IMG/VR virus record: IMGVR_UViG_3300018815_000005 | Span: 1-36,773 of that record | Strand: one strand, 5' to 3' | DNA length: 36,773 bases | Source of the DNA: a virus | Translations under genes and position numbers: made by a program | The notes under the pieces: generated by a model | Databases searched by the model: none | The model's input: the letters and a program-made list of their open reading frames with translations, nothing else | Told to the model about the DNA's origin: nothing | Shown here: in pieces, positions 2,579 through 36,327 of the stretch | How positions within the stretch are numbered: the first letter of the stretch is position 1 | Layout of the letters: each line of letters starts with the position of its first letter

Positions 2579-3253
2579 ATGGCTCTAAAACTATTGGTAG
2601 AAAGACCTGCTCCTGAAGAACAATTTGAATATGTTTTAGAAGAGAAGAATTCCAAAGGCCCTGCCACTCTGTACATCAATGGACCATACATGATGGCTGA
2701 AGGTGTTAATAAAAATAACAGAGTGTATGATGTGAATGAAATGGCACGTGAAGTAACACGGTACAGTGACGAGCTCATCAAGAATAACCGCTCCATGGGA
2801 GAATTAAATCACCCCACCACTGCTGATGTGGACTTGGAAAGAGCTTGTCACTTGGTTACAGAGCTCAAGCAAGATGGTAATGTATTTTATGGCAAATCCA
2901 AGGTGTTAACCACCCCCATGGGCATGATTGTGCGCTCTCTTGTGAATGATGGTGTGCGAGTTGGCATGTCATCGCGCGCCTTGGGCAAGCTTGAAGAACA
3001 ATCCAGTGGCATACAACGTGTCACAGAAATGCGTCTGGTGGCCATTGATTGTGTTGCAGATCCATCGTTTCCCAAGGCCTTTGTCAATGGTATTCTGGAA
3101 TCCAAGCAGTTTGTTCTGGAAGCAGATGGCAAGTATGCAGAGGTGTATGACACGTTTTGCAACACACTGAAGAACTTGCCTAGAGTGGATGTGGAGTCAT
3201 ATTTAAAAGAACAAATATCAAATTTCTTTAAAAAAATGACTCTGGCAGTATAA
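2579..3253 (+). CDS. 21: prohead core protease (gp21-like)
   Basis: A 224-residue serine protease that matures the T4-type prohead by cleaving scaffold and capsid proteins after Glu. The family signatures are visible: GELNHP with catalytic His78, and GMSSRALG holding the catalytic Ser131 or Ser132. The length matches the gp21 family. It lies directly before a small core protein, the scaffold and the capsid protein, the standard T4-like head order. The capsid protein carries a plausible gp21 cleavage site (LRE/A, residues 59-62). Expression is late, from the TATAAATA just upstream. Confidence 0.93.
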   Translation: MALKLLVERPAPEEQFEYVLEEKNSKGPATLYINGPYMMAEGVNKNNRVYDVNEMAREVTRYSDELIKNNRSMGELNHPTTADVDLERACHLVTELKQDGNVFYGKSKVLTTPMGMIVRSLVNDGVRVGMSSRALGKLEEQSSGIQRVTEMRLVAIDCVADPSFPKAFVNGILESKQFVLEADGKYAEVYDTFCNTLKNLPRVDVESYLKEQISNFFKKMTLAV

Positions 3254-6416: not shown

Positions 6417-7337
6417 TCACTGACGCACTGTTTTAGTAAAGTACTTGTACTTGTCCCAAATGGCACAATTCTGTGCCAACAGCTCTGGGCTACTGGCTCG
6501 GATGGGATTGATGTCAATGCCACCACGTCTCACATACAAACAGGCCACCATGAGCTCTTCAGGTTTTGTCAGATCATGCAAGCGCTTGTAAATGGTCTCA
6601 CATATCTCTTCATGAAAATGACATTCATCTCTGAATGACACAATGTATTGCAACAAAGAGGTTTGGTTAAGCTCATAAGGTCCTTTGTAATGTATGTACA
6701 CATCACCCCAATCTGGTTGGGATGTGACCCGGCAATTGCTCTTTAACAGGGCGGAATGAAAGCGCTGCACTTTGCTTGCATCACCTTGCAACCAACCAAG
6801 TAATTCTGGATCCTCTTTGTAACCTCTGGACTTGATAGTCGTCACATCAATGTTGTTCTCCAGTGTAGGATATGCAGTGCGTGGAAACAAGGGAGGATAA
6901 TGCATCTCTTCATCAACCGCTTTTGTAAGACGAACATAGACCTGCACATCAGTTTCTAATAGGGTGGATAGGTCTTTTGCAATCACCTGTTCCAACTGCT
7001 TCAAAACGCTAACTATGCTGCCACTAAACTTCTCCATGTTGAAAGTATTCATGTACAGCTTGATGGACTTGGACTCCACAATGTATTTGTTGGTTGCAGG
7101 GTACACACACTTGGCAATGGCAGCAATGGGCATGCCTTCATTGGTCAAGCAAGACACCTCATATGCATTCCAAATATCATAACCACAAAAGGGTGGTGCT
7201 TCATCACTAATATTCAAATGCTTTCTGTTGTTGCATCTGGGTTCACGAACCAACAATGTGGGATCATAAGTGCACTTGTACCCAGTGATCTTACCCAAAT
7301 GCTTGGCAATATTACTGTTATCTAATTCTGTATTCAT
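6417..7337 (-). CDS. queF: QueF, preQ0 reductase (7-cyano-7-deazaguanine reductase)
   Basis: A 306-residue long-form QueF, which reduces the nitrile of preQ0 to the aminomethyl of preQ1 with NADPH. Family motifs are intact: ESKSIKLYMNTFN (88-100), the catalytic Cys202 in LLKSNC, Asp209 in QPDWG, FHEE (241-244), and RRGGIDINP (270-278). The length fits the unimodular E. coli-type enzyme, so it should be active. It is the last gene of the seven-gene run and its start overlaps the end of the radical SAM gene by 4 bases. PreQ0-synthesis genes (folE, queD, queE, queC) are not in this window, so preQ0 comes from the host or elsewhere in the genome. Beside DpdA-like and formyltransferase genes it likely serves DNA modification rather than tRNA queuosine. 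Confidence 0.93.
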   Translation of the reverse strand: MNTELDNSNIAKHLGKITGYKCTYDPTLLVREPRCNNRKHLNISDEAPPFCGYDIWNAYEVSCLTNEGMPIAAIAKCVYPATNKYIVESKSIKLYMNTFNMEKFSGSIVSVLKQLEQVIAKDLSTLLETDVQVYVRLTKAVDEEMHYPPLFPRTAYPTLENNIDVTTIKSRGYKEDPELLGWLQGDASKVQRFHSALLKSNCRVTSQPDWGDVYIHYKGPYELNQTSLLQYIVSFRDECHFHEEICETIYKRLHDLTKPEELMVACLYVRRGGIDINPIRASSPELLAQNCAIWDKYKYFTKTVRQ

Positions 7338-8659
7338 TGGTTATATTGTATACCATCTACAAAGTTCTTCAACTCATTATATTTGATATCCAAGTTGTAT
7401 GTTGACACATCACCTGACAACAGATGTGCAGTTTCAGGAAAAATATCTTCATAACTTTCATTGCGTCTCACATCCAGTCGCTTGATGCTCTCTTTGAATC
7501 TCTTGCTATTGAATGGCTCAATTTGATTCTTGAGCAACATGAAATTCATGATGGATGAGAACTCTTGCCGCACATATGCAACACTTTCTTCTGAGAAACG
7601 CTGCAAAAGCTTAACTGCCACATTGTCAATGAAGCAATTGTAAAACTTTAGAATTTTTAACTTGTCCTCCAACGGCAATGTTTGTATGTTCAGATATTCA
7701 GGCCCGTACAATGGTCTGCATGCAATGTCTGCATGACCAACTAACCCTTTGCGTAGAAAGTCTGCATACAGGAAAGGCACACTGTATATGGTGGGTATGC
7801 TAATGGTGGGTACCAATCTTAGGAATGCTTGAGGCACAATTTGCTTGAGCTGACTCACATTTGCAATAATTTTTTTGTATATGCTTCCTTTTCTCATGTA
7901 GTCATTAACTTGGGCATGACCATCAATGCTTAGCATGATAAAAACGTTCTTAAACTCTTTGAGTAAGTCCGGTATGTACTCACCTTTGCAAAACAAAGAT
8001 GATGCATTGGTATGAAATCTTATTTTAACGTTAAGATTGTTTACCCTTTTAAATTCTTTTATCAAAGTGAAGTAATCAGATATTAGAAAAGGCTCACCAC
8101 CTGCAAACTCAATTTCTTCCACATGCTCAATTCTGTCAATGATAAATTTGATAAGTTTTTCTTTTTGTGGTATTTCAATGACACCAGTCTTGGAATTGAA
8201 AGAATTTTGATAATTTGATGCATACTTCACATCCTCTAGCAACCAAGAAGAGCTCAAACCACTGTGACACATTCTGCATTTAAAATTGCACAAACTGGAC
8301 AACCGTATATCAATGTAGGGAAAGTTTTCAAAATGATAATGACCATCTTTGTCTGTCTTGTCAACAAGTGGCAGTGCATGTGCATACTTGGTATTCCAGT
8401 GATGACGAAAACTCTTTGTACCTGTCTTTTCCTCACTCACGCAATGGCTGCAAGCCTTCTGATCTGGCTCATTTGCCATCATCTTGCATCTGAATTGCTT
8501 GGCTTTTTCTGAATTCAAGATATCTTCAATTGCATTATCATTCAGGTCACCAAACGCGTTCTCAGGATCAAATGTGGACATGCAACAAGGATACACCAGG
8601 CCATCTGGCAATGCATGTATGCCTGCCCAAGGGGCCAAACAAAAGGGCATGTCACTCAC
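7334..8659 (-). CDS. radical SAM protein with auxiliary (SPASM/twitch-like) cysteines
   Basis: A 441-residue radical SAM enzyme. The CX3CX2C motif that binds the SAM-cleaving 4Fe-4S cluster is C124, C128, C131 (LCNFKCRMC). A GGEPF-type SAM-binding motif follows (EFAGGEPFL). The N-terminus carries an FCLAPW segment and cysteines at 7, 25, 26, 70 and 73 that could hold an auxiliary cluster, an arrangement common in phage twitch/SPASM radical SAM proteins. Its substrate is unknown. It overlaps both the kinase gene and queF by 4 bases, so it is translated with the base-modification genes and may act on a deazaguanine, a nucleotide or a peptide. It is not QueE: it is about twice that length and carries extra cysteine motifs. 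Confidence 0.85.
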   Translation of the reverse strand: MSDMPFCLAPWAGIHALPDGLVYPCCMSTFDPENAFGDLNDNAIEDILNSEKAKQFRCKMMANEPDQKACSHCVSEEKTGTKSFRHHWNTKYAHALPLVDKTDKDGHYHFENFPYIDIRLSSLCNFKCRMCHSGLSSSWLLEDVKYASNYQNSFNSKTGVIEIPQKEKLIKFIIDRIEHVEEIEFAGGEPFLISDYFTLIKEFKRVNNLNVKIRFHTNASSLFCKGEYIPDLLKEFKNVFIMLSIDGHAQVNDYMRKGSIYKKIIANVSQLKQIVPQAFLRLVPTISIPTIYSVPFLYADFLRKGLVGHADIACRPLYGPEYLNIQTLPLEDKLKILKFYNCFIDNVAVKLLQRFSEESVAYVRQEFSSIMNFMLLKNQIEPFNSKRFKESIKRLDVRRNESYEDIFPETAHLLSGDVSTYNLDIKYNELKNFVDGIQYNQ

Positions 8660-9246
8660 CGTGTAGCACTTGGCAGCAACTCATGCAATTTAGCTTTGAT
8701 CTGCTCCATACGCTCTGCCACAGTGCCCCGCAATATAGTAACTTTGCCACGAATATTGATATCATCCAACCAGAAATTTTCATACATGCTAGTGATGCGC
8801 GATCTGAAATGATCACACGTGCTTCTTTCACCATCATCTTCCATGGGCACATCATGCGGATTGGTATAAAAGATATGATCATACCGGTGTATGTGTGAAT
8901 AATAATACCGTGCACCCAAAGCTTCTGAGAATTGGAACTTGTTCCTGCCATATTTTTCTGCAAAGTAGTTTGTATATATCATGCCATCCAACAAACATCG
9001 ATCATGCAGAATACCTTGGAAGCCACTCAACTTGTAACCAATAAACAGGTTCTCAAATTCTTTATTCAAGATTAAAGTCTGAGTAATATCACATGCACCT
9101 TCTTCATTGATAGGCACATCAAACTCACGTTTGATGAGTCGTGTAACCTCTTCCACATATGTAAGCCGACTGTCATAATGCTTCTTACATGCTTGTAGCA
9201 ATGTAGATTTGCCAGAACACTGAGGGCCTGTGAAAGTGAATATCAT
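8656..9246 (-). CDS. P-loop kinase/NadR-like ATPase
   Basis: A 196-residue P-loop NTPase with Walker A GPQCSGKST (7-15) and a DRCLLDGMIY segment that resembles the DR motif of nucleoside and nucleotide kinases. The size and pattern match the AAA_28/NadR-like family often seen in phages, whose members phosphorylate small nucleoside or nicotinamide-riboside substrates. The substrate here is not known. It sits between a coiled-coil peptide and the radical SAM gene with 4-base overlaps on both sides, which points to stoichiometric co-expression with the modification genes. Confidence 0.75.
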   Translation of the reverse strand: MIFTFTGPQCSGKSTLLQACKKHYDSRLTYVEEVTRLIKREFDVPINEEGACDITQTLILNKEFENLFIGYKLSGFQGILHDRCLLDGMIYTNYFAEKYGRNKFQFSEALGARYYYSHIHRYDHIFYTNPHDVPMEDDGERSTCDHFRSRITSMYENFWLDDINIRGKVTILRGTVAERMEQIKAKLHELLPSATR

Positions 9247-9824: not shown

Positions 9825-10397
9825 TTAAGCTGCAACATGTGGGCTGAGAAATGACTGCCACAGTGTCTGTGCACATGCATGCAATGCACTGTACACCTGA
9901 GGTAGTGTGAGACTATCAATATCAATTTCACTGTATGATATGATGTCACCTTCATCAACACCAGGAGTCACTTTATGAATTACACACCCTGCACTTTTGT
10001 ATCCATCAATAAAAGCGCGCTCTTGTGGGTTGTAGCCTTTGAGTTCTGGAAACTTATTAATAAGACCAGGATGCAGATTGTACATCTCATACTTGTTACA
10101 AATTTCCTTGGGTATGATGCGCAGGTAGCCATGCAGTGTGATGAGCGGATCTTTTTCCTCATACCCAGCTAATGCGTCAGTGTAATCCTTGAGACTAGGT
10201 TTCACAGGCAACACTTCCCAGTTGCGCATGTTCAATAATACAGCTCTGGATGTTGCAACAGTGAGCAAATCTTTGTTAATTTTCCCCTGTTGATGTTGAT
10301 TGGTAACAATCAAATCTGGATATGTGCCAAGCTTGTTGCATAGCTGTTGAATCTCTGTTCCCGTTTGGCTAAAAAATGCAACCCAAGGACGCTTCAT
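9825..10397 (-). CDS. PurN-fold formyltransferase, DpdN-like candidate
   Basis: A 190-residue formyltransferase of the PurN/Fmt N-terminal fold, which moves a formyl group from 10-formyl-tetrahydrofolate to an amine. The catalytic triad is visible: Asn107 and His109 in YNLHPG, and Asp148 in TPGVDEGDI. No Fmt C-terminal tRNA-binding domain is present. Annotation tools would probably call it phosphoribosylglycinamide formyltransferase, but its start overlaps the DpdA-like gene by 4 bases and queF is in the same run. That matches the predicted role of DpdN, formylation of the aminomethyl of 7-aminomethyl-7-deazaguanine to give fdPreQ1. The fold is firm; the substrate is inferred from context. 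Confidence 0.8.
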   Translation of the reverse strand: MKRPWVAFFSQTGTEIQQLCNKLGTYPDLIVTNQHQQGKINKDLLTVATSRAVLLNMRNWEVLPVKPSLKDYTDALAGYEEKDPLITLHGYLRIIPKEICNKYEMYNLHPGLINKFPELKGYNPQERAFIDGYKSAGCVIHKVTPGVDEGDIISYSEIDIDSLTLPQVYSALHACAQTLWQSFLSPHVAA

Positions 10398-30895: not shown

Positions 30896-30903
30896 TATTT
30901 ATA
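30896..30903 (-). promoter_or_regulatory. T4-type late promoter octamer (exact TATAAATA)
   Basis: TATAAATA on the minus strand, then CAGGTG and the ATG at 30889. It lies at the 3' end of the upstream small gene. Confidence 0.68.
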
Positions 30904-31099
30904 CCGGTTTTGTTAGCTTTAAATCTTTTATTTTCTTCTTCTTTTTAGCATCTTCTTCTGATTCTGTGCCAACAATGTTTGCTTCAATGTTGCCTGTGCT
31001 GTGTGCATCCTCTTTGGGTGTGTAGCGGTAGCTGTTTTGCTTGGTGGTGGTGTTGTTCAGACTGCTAGGGTCTTGCATGAACTTTGCAAAGGTCTTCAT
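30899..31099 (-). CDS. small charged protein, unknown
   Basis: A 66-residue hydrophilic protein (MKTFAKFMQDPSSLNN) with a DAKKKKKIKD tail. Its ATG overlaps the stop of the ligase-like gene by 4 bases, so the two are made together. Unrecognised; low-complexity and probably disordered. Confidence 0.6.
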   Translation of the reverse strand: MKTFAKFMQDPSSLNNTTTKQNSYRYTPKEDAHSTGNIEANIVGTESEEDAKKKKKIKDLKLTKPV

Positions 31100-32190
31100 T
31101 TGCCAAAAGAACTGTCCATGCCCTTCACAATGAACTCACCAGTGATCTTCACAGGTGATGTGGATATCTTTGGATCCCTCACCACAACACCTTCATGCTT
31201 GGTGAGGTCACCAGCAGAAGATCCCAATCCTTGCAACACACTGTTGCCCAGCACTCGCGTGGCATGATACAAAATGGCACCATCCACAATCAACTTCTGC
31301 ATCTTGGGATCAGTTGCAATGGCATCAATGGGCTTGCCTTGCAGCACATACAAGTAATTGCTCTTGGTCATGGCTGGCACTTTCTTGCCTGCAACATTTA
31401 CTATTTGTGCATTGCGAGGGTTGACAGCTTTCTTGAGCCAGTTGGACAATGGCTGTGTTACACTGTTGTTGGCTGCATACACCACAGTGATGGGTTGGCT
31501 CAGAGTTTCTGTGAAGTCTGCAGCTTGTGTCAGATCCACGCGCGTGGGACCAAACACTTCAAATCCATGTTGATGCAGCACAGGTTTCAGTTTTGCAATC
31601 ATGGCATCCAATGCCACTGTATCATATGAAGTTTCACGAGACACTCTGCCAATGCGAGCCAACTTGGGGCTCTTGGCCAGATAAAATTCTTTGATGCCAT
31701 GAAACACCAGCATGTTGCGATCATACTGAGTCACATTGGTGGTGCCTGTGATGTATTCTGTGTTGAGAAATCTGTTGCTGTTGGATGTCATTTTTAATTT
31801 CTTGAACTCTGGCATTATGAGGTCAATGGCACTGTCCAGCACAGGCAACAAGAACTTGCCCACTTCAATCATTTTCTGTCCACCGCCAGTGGTGGTATCA
31901 AATCTTTGATTGATGTTGTCTACTGTGATGCCCTGAATGTCGATTTCTTTGTTGCTGCCTCTGTCCAAGGCAAAACGAAATGCACCCTCTGCAGTGCGCA
32001 CCAACTTGATGCTGGTGTTGAGACCATCAAACTTGACACTGCCACGCTTTTGCTTCAAACTGATCAGAGCTCTCTTGAAGAAAACCAACAAATCGTTGCC
32101 CCGGTTCACAGAGGGCAGATCAAAAGGATGAGACATGTGACCACCAGCGCCACCTTCTTGTATGATGATGAATTTCTTGAATGTGATCAT
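31096..32190 (-). CDS. ligase-fold (nucleotidyltransferase-like) protein
   Basis: A 364-residue protein with motifs of the covalent nucleotidyltransferase superfamily (DNA/RNA ligases, capping enzymes): motif I VKFDG with Lys53 as the candidate AMP-accepting lysine, motif IV EGVVVRD (333-339), and a motif V-like VKITGEFIVKG with Lys348 and Lys356. It resembles a phage family annotated as DUF6267 or putative RNA ligase, from memory. Its start overlaps the PD-(D/E)XK-like gene by 4 bases. It could seal DNA or RNA ends. Activity is inferred; motif III was not located. Confidence 0.6.
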   Translation of the reverse strand: MITFKKFIIIQEGGAGGHMSHPFDLPSVNRGNDLLVFFKRALISLKQKRGSVKFDGLNTSIKLVRTAEGAFRFALDRGSNKEIDIQGITVDNINQRFDTTTGGGQKMIEVGKFLLPVLDSAIDLIMPEFKKLKMTSNSNRFLNTEYITGTTNVTQYDRNMLVFHGIKEFYLAKSPKLARIGRVSRETSYDTVALDAMIAKLKPVLHQHGFEVFGPTRVDLTQAADFTETLSQPITVVYAANNSVTQPLSNWLKKAVNPRNAQIVNVAGKKVPAMTKSNYLYVLQGKPIDAIATDPKMQKLIVDGAILYHATRVLGNSVLQGLGSSAGDLTKHEGVVVRDPKISTSPVKITGEFIVKGMDSSFGK

Positions 32191-33245
32191 TTGATGACAA
32201 TCTTTGGATACAGATCATTTATTGTGAAGTTGCCAAGTGTCCTCACTTTGCCTGCATCAATGTGGCCTCCTGGTTTGATCAAATCTTCTCTTGTGGTCAC
32301 AATGTAATTGTAACGCGGATCAATAAACAGCATATAATCAGTTTTTATGTACCCATCTGCATTGAGCTTCAGCAGTGCAATGTTAATTTGCTTCACGTCA
32401 CCGGTACGGAACAACTGATCATTGAAGTATTTTTCAGCCATAGATGCATTATTTGCATATATGCTGTTGAGCTTCTTAATTGCATATGATACAAATTCTT
32501 GCTTGTTGTCCACAGCATTGTAGCTGGCAAGCAAAATGTCACCCATTCGAATGTTCAGACCTTGATCAATTTGTTTCAATTTATCTGGGTTTCTGATGAA
32601 AGGATCTAGAAAAAGAGTTTTCAACAACTTCATGCCACCCCGGCCTGATTGCTGTCCCAGATGCCCTTCATTTTTTTTCACCTCTATCTTCTTGTCTGCA
32701 TGCACCAAATCACCACCAGTGGTGCTGTTGAACACATCACTGAATACAATGGCAAACAAAATTTCACCAGGACCCACACTGTTACCACCTGCATCTCGCA
32801 GCTCATTCAAACCAGATAAATTGCCTATGAGTGCATCAGACAATCCTTTGCCACGTGCCAAGACAGCCACGTTGCCAGCAAGATGGTCATTGAATTTTAA
32901 ATCATTCTTGGTGTTAATGAATTCAACAAATTTCTTGAGATCTTCATCACTGCTATCAAAAATTGTTGACAACAGCACATTGTACCCTTTGCCTTGAAAA
33001 GCTGCAGCTGTATATTTCTTGCTGGTAAGAAATGATTGTATGGCACCTTCATATGAGGCATCACGTATCTCTTTTTTGAGCTTATCTGCAGTAGCATCTG
33101 GCACCTTGAATTCATCCACATTCTTCTCTTGATCCTTTTGAATTAAGACAGTGGCATCCTCTCTTACAAACAACACTCTGGTGTTGGAGGACTGCAGAAC
33201 CTCGTCAAGCTTGGACTGTAAACTTATATACTTCTTGATGGGCAT
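32187..33245 (-). CDS. PD-(D/E)XK-like nuclease-fold protein, putative
   Basis: A 352-residue protein. Its centre has the pattern GPGE (158-161), GGDL with Asp179, and EVK (188-190), followed by GHLGQQSGRGG. Spacing of Asp to E-x-K and the GxGE element match PD-(D/E)XK nucleases found in marine phages. The flanks are helical and unassigned. The start is the second of two adjacent ATGs, 6 bases after GATAAATA. It is coupled to the ligase-like gene. A structural role cannot be excluded. Confidence 0.55.
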   Translation of the reverse strand: MPIKKYISLQSKLDEVLQSSNTRVLFVREDATVLIQKDQEKNVDEFKVPDATADKLKKEIRDASYEGAIQSFLTSKKYTAAAFQGKGYNVLLSTIFDSSDEDLKKFVEFINTKNDLKFNDHLAGNVAVLARGKGLSDALIGNLSGLNELRDAGGNSVGPGEILFAIVFSDVFNSTTGGDLVHADKKIEVKKNEGHLGQQSGRGGMKLLKTLFLDPFIRNPDKLKQIDQGLNIRMGDILLASYNAVDNKQEFVSYAIKKLNSIYANNASMAEKYFNDQLFRTGDVKQINIALLKLNADGYIKTDYMLFIDPRYNYIVTTREDLIKPGGHIDAGKVRTLGNFTINDLYPKIVIK

Positions 33246-33251
33246 CATGGT

Positions 33252-33259
33252 TATTTATC
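33252..33259 (-). promoter_or_regulatory. T4-type late promoter octamer
   Basis: GATAAATA on the minus strand, 6 bases before the ATG at 33245 and 3 before the ATG at 33248. Confidence 0.58.
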
Positions 33260-33267
33260 TATAATCA

Positions 33268-33305
33268 TAAAAAAACCCTTACGCTCAGGGCATAAGGGCT
33301 TTTCT
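33268..33305 (-). terminator. intrinsic terminator, minus strand
   Basis: On the minus strand CCCTTA and TAAGGG (33298-33293 and 33281-33276) pair, with a run of seven T after them. It would stop minus-strand transcription coming from 34026 before the nuclease-like gene. The plus strand has only a short T stretch. Confidence 0.6.
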
Positions 33306-34131: not shown

Positions 34132-36327
34132 GTGAAGATCAGTTCCAGTTACAAGAATGTTGCTAATGGCAGTAACTACACCGAGAGCATCAGAATATCT
34201 GCTGCACCTCTGCTCATTGCCAATGCTCTGGTGAATCAAACCATTCTGAACAATCTGTCCACACTCACATTCAACTACCCAGCTCTCACTTCCAATACAG
34301 ATGCACCAGTGCTGTTGTCTGGTGCACCCCTGTACATCACCAATGTGTACTACACAAACACTACAATGGATGCATACACTCTGCCATTGGGTGTGGAGGT
34401 GGATCTCACCCTGCTTGGTTACAGATTCAATTTTACAAATGGTATTTACTTGAGTGGGTCTTTTTTTGATAAAATATCAAGTGGTGTCATCATATCAAAC
34501 TTTCTCAGCTCATTTGCAGAGATTACTGATTTTGTAAATGTGGCCAGCCTGTCCACTGCCTTCCAGCCATTCTCTGGTTATGAATTTATTAATTATGACA
34601 TAGACAGCGACAACAAGCTGTCACTGATACTGCCACCATTCACAGCTGATGCTGAGCTCAGCATTGTCATCAAAGATCGTGGTGGGTATGATGCAGCAAA
34701 TATTAACTTGATCACGGCCACCCCCACACCCACCATATCTCTGACACCCACTGTGACACCTACAAATACTCCTACCATATCTCTGACACCTACTAACACT
34801 GTGACCCCCACTGTGACCCCCACTGTGTCACCCACCTTGACGCCCACAAATACCCCCACGGTCACAGTTACACAGACGCCCACTGTGACAGTCACAACCA
34901 CGCCCACTGTGACAGTCACAACCACACCCACAGTGACTCCCACCAATACCGTGACACCCACTGTGACTGTGACTCCCACCAACACTGTGACACCCACACG
35001 CACTGCAACACCCACTGTGACACCTACCAACACTGTGACACCTACTGTGACTGTAACACCCACCAACACTGTGACTCCTACTGTGACTGTAACACCCACA
35101 GTGACACCCACAGTGACACCACATGATGCATTCAGTCCCATCACATTGCTTGGCAATCAAGGCATATATGAGATACCCATAAACACAGGCAGTCCCTTTG
35201 TTAATTATGTTACTTTCTCGTACGATAATTTCGACATCCCGGACAGATACATCTGGTATGATAGCAGAAACAAGAGAGTGTTGCATGACACAGGATTCAG
35301 AGGCAATTCTGCATACAATGCTGCACTCAATGCATTAGGATATGATGCAGTGGTGGGACCAACCACAGGCCAAGAGTCTTTCATCAACCTGTCAAACATA
35401 TACACATTGCCGTCCAATCTGGACACCTGGTATGTGACATTGTGTGTGATTGCACCACTGGTGAACTCATCATGGCTTGTCACTGTTGAAGACTCTGTGC
35501 TATTTGCACTGCCAGTTGCACCAGCCATATGGCTTGATTCAAGTCGCAGTGACACTGTGCTGGATGCATCTGGCAACCCGTGTGCACCAGATGCACCAGT
35601 GGCCACATGGCGGGACTTGAGCATAAACAACAGACACTTCTCACAGAACACCAGCAGTGCCAGGCCGTTGCTGTCATCTTATGCTGGCATGAATTACATC
35701 AAGTTTAATTCTGCCAATCTAACTGCCTTGACTGGCAACAGCAATTCTCTCACTTTCTCCAATGGTGTTTCTGGTGTGACTCTGGTGTCTGTGTCACAGT
35801 TTGGCAATGCAAACGTTGCTTTTGCCACTGTGCCTGAAACTATTTTTGCAAATACTGTGGGCATTGGCCAAGGCAATGGTTCCAGAATTAAATTCATGTC
35901 CACTCCTGTGCGAGTCAAGGTGCCTGGCATTCCTGGCAATCCAGGCAATGATGGCTTCTTCTTCTCTTCTGGAGGCAGAAGAACTGATACAGATGAGAAT
36001 GATGGTGGCGCGCCATTGGACATAACCACAGCCACGGTGAAGAATCTTGTTACACCAGGTGTATTTGCAGCCACCATCAATTATGCTGCTGCTCAAGTGC
36101 AACTGTTCTTCAATGAAGCTGCTGCTGGCACTGACCCTGCATTCCAAACACCTGGCAATGTGTCATCCACCAATGCCTCCAAGGCTGCCATGGGACGCCG
36201 ATTCATTGGTACAGAACCCTTCTATCACAATGGTGTCATTGGAGAATTCATAGCTTATGAAAGAATACTCACACCAGCAGAATTAACTACCATCACCCTA
36301 TACTTGTCCAGCAAGTGGGGCATATAA
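34132..36327 (+). CDS. LamG-like adhesin with a long Val/Thr/Pro linker
   Basis: A 731-residue virion protein. An N-terminal beta domain (1-190) is followed by a stalk of about 135 residues (194-330) made of TPT and TVTPT repeats, and then a C-terminal region. The last 240 residues (from APAIWLDSS to [14 protein letters not shown]) form a LamG/concanavalin-like lectin domain, which binds sugars. A Pro/Gly patch ([12 protein letters not shown]) lies within it. It probably displays a glycan-binding head on a stiff extended stalk. The start is GTG 34132, 7 bases after TTAAATA. Confidence 0.82.
34711..35121 (+). repeat. low-complexity Thr/Pro/Val-coding repeat
   Basis: About 410 bp of short imperfect units such as ACTGTGACACCCAC, coding TVTPT/TNTVTPT. 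It creates a long false open frame on the minus strand. Confidence 0.9.

Follow-up and report, generated by a model that had tools for sequence, protein, structure and literature searches.

A DUF6267-related protein of the ligase superfamily with a putative capsid-targeting sequence in T4-like phages

We analysed the record of a T4-like phage, a stretch of 36,773 bases referred to here as the window, which encodes a gp21-type prohead protease, a gp22-like scaffold and a gp23-type major head protein. The product of its gene at 31096-32190 is predicted to be a nucleotidyltransferase of the ligase superfamily, forming a lysine-NMP intermediate, and this prediction is well supported by the modelled fold together with conserved sequence motifs. 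As the best explanation of the whole, advanced tentatively and with slightly less than even confidence, we propose that this enzyme is packaged in the phage head and injected for work on RNA ends. The computed support covers the fold, the conservation of motifs, gene coupling and its recurrence, homology to the DUF6267 family, the resemblance of the N-terminus to a head tag, and the presence of the protease.

The preliminary description of this DNA had placed a nuclease-like and a ligase-like pattern in adjacent genes overlapping by 4 bases. Both reading frames were confirmed, on the minus strand, as was the overlap (an ATGA junction); a third ATGA-coupled gene, of 66 aa (31099-30899), had been overlooked. 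The operon comprises the following features:

30899..31099, minus strand: gene for a 66-aa protein with a capsid-targeting-like N-terminus (MKTFAKFMQD) and a lysine-rich C-terminus
31096..31099, minus strand: ATGA overlap of 4 bases between the stop of the ligase-like gene and the start of the 66-aa gene, also found in the related locus L003
31096..32190, minus strand: predicted ligase-type nucleotidyltransferase of 364 aa, a relative of DUF6267
32187..32190, minus strand: ATGA overlap of 4 bases between the stop of the nuclease-like gene and the start of the ligase-like gene, junction ATCAAATGATC
32187..33245, minus strand: PD-(D/E)XK-like gene, 352 aa, with a G-P-G-E helix, D179 and E188-x-K190
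33252..33259, minus strand: late-promoter-like octamer GATAAATA, matching TATAAATA at 7/8 positions, 14 nt 5′ of ATG 33245
33269..33298, minus strand: terminator-like hairpin (CCCTTATGCCCTGAGCGTAAGGG) and T run just 5′ of the operon promoter, read from the sequence

The 4-base overlap between the nuclease-like and ligase-like genes is repeated in L003, L007, L087, L110 and L111. If begun at the first ATG (33248), the nuclease-like protein would have 353 aa; we favoured ATG 33245 because a promoter-like octamer stands at the identical distance of exactly 14 nt in the window and in L003, where it matches TATAAATA at 8/8 positions. At the place equivalent to the hairpin, L003 has a differing hairpin and T run. 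Exact copies of TATAAATA number 5 in the window against 1.31 expected, with at least 5 in 0/100 shuffles; the octamer 5′ of the nuclease-like gene, being the 7/8 version, is not among them, and exact copies also precede the next gene (548 aa) and the prohead protease gene. Late expression of the operon would fit with the promoter-like octamer. Elsewhere in the window, genes for a GTP cyclohydrolase, a radical SAM protein and an AAA_28 protein stand in a row (6417-9246, minus strand), possibly forming a cluster for 7-deazaguanine-type or other nucleotide modification; a formyltransferase-like gene (PF00551) lies at 9825-10397 (minus strand), and 34132-36327 (plus strand) encodes a 731-aa protein with a long TPT/TVT-rich repeat and a C-terminal match to the virion structural family phrog_10356.

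The ligase fold ascribed to the product of 31096-32190 was borne out by structure prediction. The AF2 model had a pLDDT of 90.9, with residues 1-14 below 50, and the best 50 VIA-align rows were all RNA or DNA ligases. The first of these was T4 Rnl1 (5tt6), aligned over 185 residues with a Z of 8.4, a value near the level that can reflect merely a common arrangement. Foldseek against the PDB gave a best E of just 0.045, its leading rows being mostly ligases and capping enzymes. Since the single fold-match scores are modest or weak, we base the superfamily assignment on fold and motifs in combination. The nearest solved folds, T4 Rnl1 and the adenylyltransferase domain of fungal Trl1 (Z 8.4 and 7.1), share with the window protein motif I (KxDG), motif IV (EG) and the motif V lysine in the same order. 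The window protein differs from them in its low identity (at most 13%), in having no C-terminal domain and a single motif V lysine, in a long insert between the H164-G165 region and motif IV, which we take to be some 120 residues longer than in Rnl1, and in that no kinase or phosphatase partner was recognised nearby. Because of the missing C-terminal domain, the threonine (T350) in place of a second lysine and the long insert, the substrate class is not readable from the fold. DNA ligases use an OB domain; only 16 residues follow K348 in the window protein, which the model folds into short helices, and no OB-fold was found after motif V. An identity as DNA ligase or capping enzyme was therefore rejected.

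Members of the ligase superfamily carry their nucleotidyl-transfer motifs in the order K-x-D-G, a Glu further on, E-G and a Lys. All the motifs named in the preliminary description (GPGE, D179, E188-x-K190, KFDG and EGVVVR) are present, the nuclease-like numbering counting from the second ATG (33245). Those of the ligase-like protein lie as follows:

32023..32034, minus strand: motif I, K53-F-D-G56; K53, D55 and G56 invariant (51/51), K53 being the lysine predicted to be adenylylated
31189..31194, minus strand: motif IV, E333-G334, invariant (51/51)
31132..31149, minus strand: motif V-like, K348-I-T-G-E-F353; K348, T350, G351 and F353 invariant (51/51)

In an alignment of 51 family sequences with identities down to 21%, 20 positions were invariant, among them G13, G14, G17, H18, H21, P22, F23, K53, D55, G56, E145 (the acidic residue of the motif III region), N152, Y156, E333, G334, K348, T350, G351 and F353. 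The predicted catalytic positions K53, D55, G56, E145, E333, G334 and K348 are all among them. The two-lysine motif V (KxK) of ATP-dependent RNA and DNA ligases is replaced by K348-I-T350, the second lysine being T350 in 51/51 sequences. NAD+ ligases have a single motif V lysine, so that this replacement does not exclude the ligase superfamily. Purifying selection on the gene is strong (dN/dS 0.022, window versus L003). Conceivably, the fold could have been kept for binding only, in a structural or DNA-protecting head protein devoid of nucleotidyltransferase activity, as the late-gene context and the weak Foldseek E-values would allow. Such a role, however, would not require that every predicted catalytic residue be invariant in 51 divergent sequences and again in DUF6267, and we regard it as improbable.

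With matches weaker than E 0.01 counted as chance, the window ligase-like protein (P0002) had no naming match in Pfam, PHROGs or NCBIfam, and neither P0001 nor P0002 had a convincing match in these libraries, in PADLOC or among PDB sequences. Weak tblastn matches of the ligase-like protein were obtained in two annotated phage records, Microcystis phage Mel-JY01 and the uncultured LR756500. An alignment of the proteins from these two records, the window and L003 seeded a scan of IMG/VR, which yielded at least 517 confirmed matches. When cellular genomes were scanned with a profile, just 3 related contigs came up, all of them from MAGs or from an assembly of an uncultured bacterium; at that sensitivity, the family therefore looks phage-specific.

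A link to a named family came from a structure search of the viral models in BFVD, in which the window protein matched an S-PM2 protein (E 2e-5). This protein, S-PM2d138, consists of DUF6267 (PF19782, E 1.6e-111) followed by a cytidylyltransferase-like domain. Comparison of the window family with DUF6267 by hhalign gave 84% and 82% at two settings, and at most 0.5% for decoys (reversed, shuffled and three unrelated alignments). The DUF6267 invariants K50-x-D-G, K78, D123, Y151, H173, E370-G and K382 match those of the window family. DUF6267 (phrog_455; T4-GC 71 of cyanophages) thus has H..H, KxDG, acidic, EG and K positions in common with the window protein, and like the window family it occurs with a cytidylyl/NMN-adenylyltransferase-like domain, either fused to it or encoded just after it, the genes often overlapping. 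The two differ in sequence, HxEHxED and KxVxR of DUF6267 corresponding to EGGxxGHMxHPFD and KxTGxF of the window protein, and they are beyond each other's reach by tblastn or Pfam, P0002 scoring no PF19782 match, that is, falling under the Pfam cut-off. As the homology is established by profile-profile comparison and fold only, we treat the window family as a sister group of DUF6267 and not as a member of it. By tblastn, DUF6267 occurs in 469 phage records, mostly of Synechococcus and Prochlorococcus phages; it is annotated as of 'unknown function', and the term was not mentioned in the literature that we searched.

The steadiest partner of the ligase-like family is a HIGH-type (NMNAT-like) nucleotidylyltransferase and not a nuclease. 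Such a domain (PF01467; GRFQPFxxxH and variants) is fused at either end or encoded next to the ligase-like protein in about half of the distinct members, on both deep branches. The gene after DUF6267 is annotated as a cytidyltransferase in cyanophages MED4-213, S-WAM2 and P-SSM4; the sister contig G001 has two PF01467 genes, located elsewhere. In the branch nearest the window (L007, L009, L011-L024 and Mel-JY01, L005), HxGH of the HIGH motif has become (G/S)xHH, as in GRFQPFGKHH, in which the first His is absent, whereas L053, L072, L075 and L080 retain HxGH. The altered motif may reflect a changed substrate, and since many HIGH motifs are altered in this way, NMN adenylylation by these domains is uncertain.

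This partnership raises the alternative of an NAD module, in which the HIGH-type domain would make NAD+ from NMN and ATP and the ligase-like domain would draw its AMP from NAD+ or from a nucleotide related to NMN. In a variant, the ligase-like domain would modify a cofactor or a protein. In either form, the pair would counter an NAD+-depleting defence or recycle NMN. Fusion or adjacency to NMNAT-like domains in both deep branches, the fusion in S-PM2 and the single motif V lysine, as in NAD+ ligases, all argue for this alternative. NMNAT-like proteins have moreover been reported in cyanophage virions (PMC10665884), and one relative has a weak LigA match over motif I (E 0.055). This match is not significant, however, no NAD-ligase Ia domain was recognised in Pfam or NCBIfam, in which P0002 itself had no match, and many HIGH motifs are altered. 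We consider both forms of the NAD module rather unlikely.

A further partner was seen in one large subgroup, where a protein of ~260 aa with KVLLLTTSNRW...KSTQLA overlaps the ligase-like gene by ~16 nt (L031, 5202-5987, and many alike among L028-L060; L053, 3619-4368); by eye it is of the NADPH-FMN-reductase or flavodoxin type. In L058 (5115-7005), an inserted ORF falls exactly on the GGAGGH codons, leaving the start of the ligase-like gene duplicated or interrupted, and the terminase of this locus also appears split by an insert, possibly pointing to homing elements.

The 352-aa product of the upstream gene is a candidate nuclease by its motif and by its gene position. It has the PD-(D/E)XK core residues, a D and an E/D-x-K after a Glu-bearing helix; G-x-G-E, D179 and E188-x-K190 are conserved in L003, L007 and L087, and the D, E and K residues, more loosely, in the nuclease-like genes of L110-L112. 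A loose PD-(D/E)XK regex, written after the motif had been seen, matched 3/432 distinct ORFs of at least 200 aa in the related loci, all 3 coupled upstream of the ligase-like gene. Between the window and L003, the nuclease-like gene shows 79% aa identity, with synonymous sites saturated and a pN of 0.12. The nuclease fold claimed earlier thus has the motif and the position on its side; it drew no support from the AF2 model (4 sequences, pLDDT 43.5) or from the libraries, since the protein had no convincing match in Pfam, PHROGs, NCBIfam, PADLOC or PDB sequences, and tblastn of P0001, P0008 and P0010 in annotated phages gave no matches. By eye only, the genes upstream of DUF6267 in MED4-213, S-WAM2 and P-SSM4, with P(A/M)DI and then G(I/V)SLK ~40-55 residues on, and that of HTVC008M, with KTDF...ISLK, are also nuclease-like, albeit without E-x-K.

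In the window, L003, L007, L087, L110, L111 and L112, the ligase-like gene is preceded by a PD-(D/E)XK-like gene that overlaps it by 4 bases. These PD-(D/E)XK-like genes fall into three divergent families, all with the G-x-(G)-E / D / E-V-K pattern; their profile-profile comparison was not significant, although the catalytic blocks align. The preliminary description had seen in the gene pair a late cut-and-seal device for packaging, end repair or counter-defence. As weighed here, the PD-(D/E)XK protein would cut phage DNA and the ligase-like protein would seal it within the infected cell, in the course of packaging, end repair or the processing of branched DNA, and the pair would not itself be packaged. 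The overlap of the two genes under one late-promoter-like sequence and its recurrence with three nuclease-like families are in agreement with this proposal. DNA ligases belong to the same superfamily, and the 217-kb sister contig G001 has no DNA ligase, RNA_ligase or NAD-ligase family match. Most members of the ligase-like family, however, have no adjoining nuclease gene; the nuclease was therefore rejected as an obligatory partner, and the family as a whole does not follow the scheme of a dedicated cut-and-seal pair. In addition, G003 encodes both a canonical DNA ligase and an RNA ligase on top of its family member, the OB domain of DNA ligases is missing, the steadiest partner is a nucleotidylyltransferase, and the N-termini resemble head tags. 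We judge that the cut-and-seal proposal is unlikely. As a comparison, a jumbo-phage survey described Rnl2 ligases fused to HNH nucleases (PMC7824862).

The resemblance to head tags concerns the following features:

32155..32190, minus strand: putative T4-type capsid-targeting sequence, codons 1-12 of the ligase-like gene (MITFKKFIIIQE), with a cut predicted after E12, before G13-G14
2579..3253, plus strand: T4 gp21-type prohead protease (Peptidase_S77; PF03420, E 7.1e-30; phrog_207, E 1.6e-55), the predicted processing enzyme

According to a review, the 10 N-terminal residues of T4 IPIII are enough for packaging, positions 4 and 7 being important for targeting and positions 8 and 10 for processing, and gp21 cleaves after L/I-x-E (PMC9026906). 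Aromatic residues stand at positions 4 and 7 of both window N-termini, MITFKKFIIIQE/GG and MKTFAKFMQD, as they do in the T4 internal proteins (AF158101; MKTYQEFIAE/A in IPII and IPIII, MKTFKEF in IPI). The ligase-like protein further resembles the latter in a nearby L/I-x-E-type site and in the presence of a gp21-type protease in the phage. By sequence resemblance, the window protein thus looks like a packaged internal protein with an I-x-E site, its E standing at position 12 versus 10 in IPIII; the T4 internal proteins are small, whereas the putative window tag sits on an enzyme fold. The earlier statement that the gene pair lies outside the T4 paradigm therefore holds for the enzymes, which are not T4's, and not for the proposed route of tagging, cleavage and packaging, which is that of T4 internal proteins.

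N-termini of this kind were found in 2/44 window ORFs against 0.06 expected, both in the ligase-like operon, and in 5/307 ORFs of the sister genome G001 against 0.54 expected (p 2e-4). The regex followed the T4 layout and was written with T4 and some of the tested N-termini in view, so these statistics are supportive but not independent. Similar N-termini occur in the ligase-like protein of L064 (MLSFLQFLAE/GG), the coupled nucleotidylyltransferase of L010 (MQTFKQFVHE/A), the nuclease-like protein of HTVC008M (MLSFTGYSNLSE/A) and the cytidylyltransferase gp154 of S-CREM2 (MKNFSSFLTE/A). The last of these is a virion protein according to mass spectrometry (PMC10665884, Table 3), and the same paper states that the virions of three further cyanomyoviruses contained NMNAT-like proteins. 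S-CREM2 gp154 has the HIGH-type domain that is the commonest ligase-like partner; with no annotated DUF6267 gene adjoining, it is a counterpart of the partner and not of the ligase-like protein. For a ligase-like member itself, we found no proteomic detection. Forms with an N-terminally fused HIGH-type domain have no tag and yet keep L/I-x-E or L/I-x-x-E before GG (48/50). The E12-GG stretch may therefore be structural, and we rejected it as proof of cleavage. In L065 (5998), a family member begins directly with M-GGAYGHM, the first residues left by cleavage after E. S-CREM2 also has a virion-detected 'hypothetical protein', gp156 (L129, 5613-6326), with GG..YTPYSDIDLHLVV and, by eye, a polymerase-beta-type nucleotidyltransferase-like motif.

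From these findings we infer packaging, cleavage, injection, RNA as the substrate and the roles of both partners. The ligase-like protein would be made late, from an operon of overlapping genes shared with the PD-(D/E)XK-like and the 66-aa proteins. Its first 12 residues would act as a T4-type capsid-targeting sequence that loads it into the prohead, where the gp21-type protease would cut it after E12, and the processed enzyme, starting with GGAGGHM, would be injected with the DNA. In the host, it would join or adenylylate nucleic-acid ends before phage gene expression, the likeliest targets being RNA ends, for example of tRNA broken by a host defence. It would share a pathway with the NMNAT-like nucleotidylyltransferase so often fused to it, while in a subset of phages the nuclease-like protein would be a partner expressed, and possibly also packaged, along with it. 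We prefer RNA repair because Rnl1 and Trl1 are the nearest folds and because an injected repair enzyme would act ahead of phage expression; RNA as the substrate is a guess from these folds, and an NAD-linked role comes close behind on account of the NMNAT-like partner.

Enzymes of the ligase type, NMNAT-like proteins in virions and capsid-targeting sequences are all known individually. What is new, as far as we searched, is that DUF6267 and its uncultured sister family are placed in the ligase superfamily and linked to head packaging. Each enzyme type has a putative tag somewhere: the ligase-like protein in the window and L064, the nucleotidylyltransferase in S-CREM2 and L010, and the nuclease-like protein in HTVC008M. 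In a wider reading that we hold to be possible but doubtful, T4-like phages of cyanobacteria, pelagibacteria and many uncultured hosts would carry in their heads, and inject, a multi-enzyme kit that repairs nucleic acid or restores NAD+ before phage expression. The kit would consist of a ligase-type nucleotidyltransferase (DUF6267 and the sister family), an NMNAT-like nucleotidylyltransferase and, in some phages, a PD-(D/E)XK nuclease. The superfamily placement gives DUF6267 (469 records) and the sister family (at least 517 matches) a testable catalytic residue. The evidence for head tags would offer a simple account of why cytidylyl/NMN-adenylyltransferase-like proteins occur in cyanophage virions, namely a T4-type tag followed by injection, and both the ligase placement and the loading by head tags are testable in culturable phages such as S-PM2 and P-SSM4.
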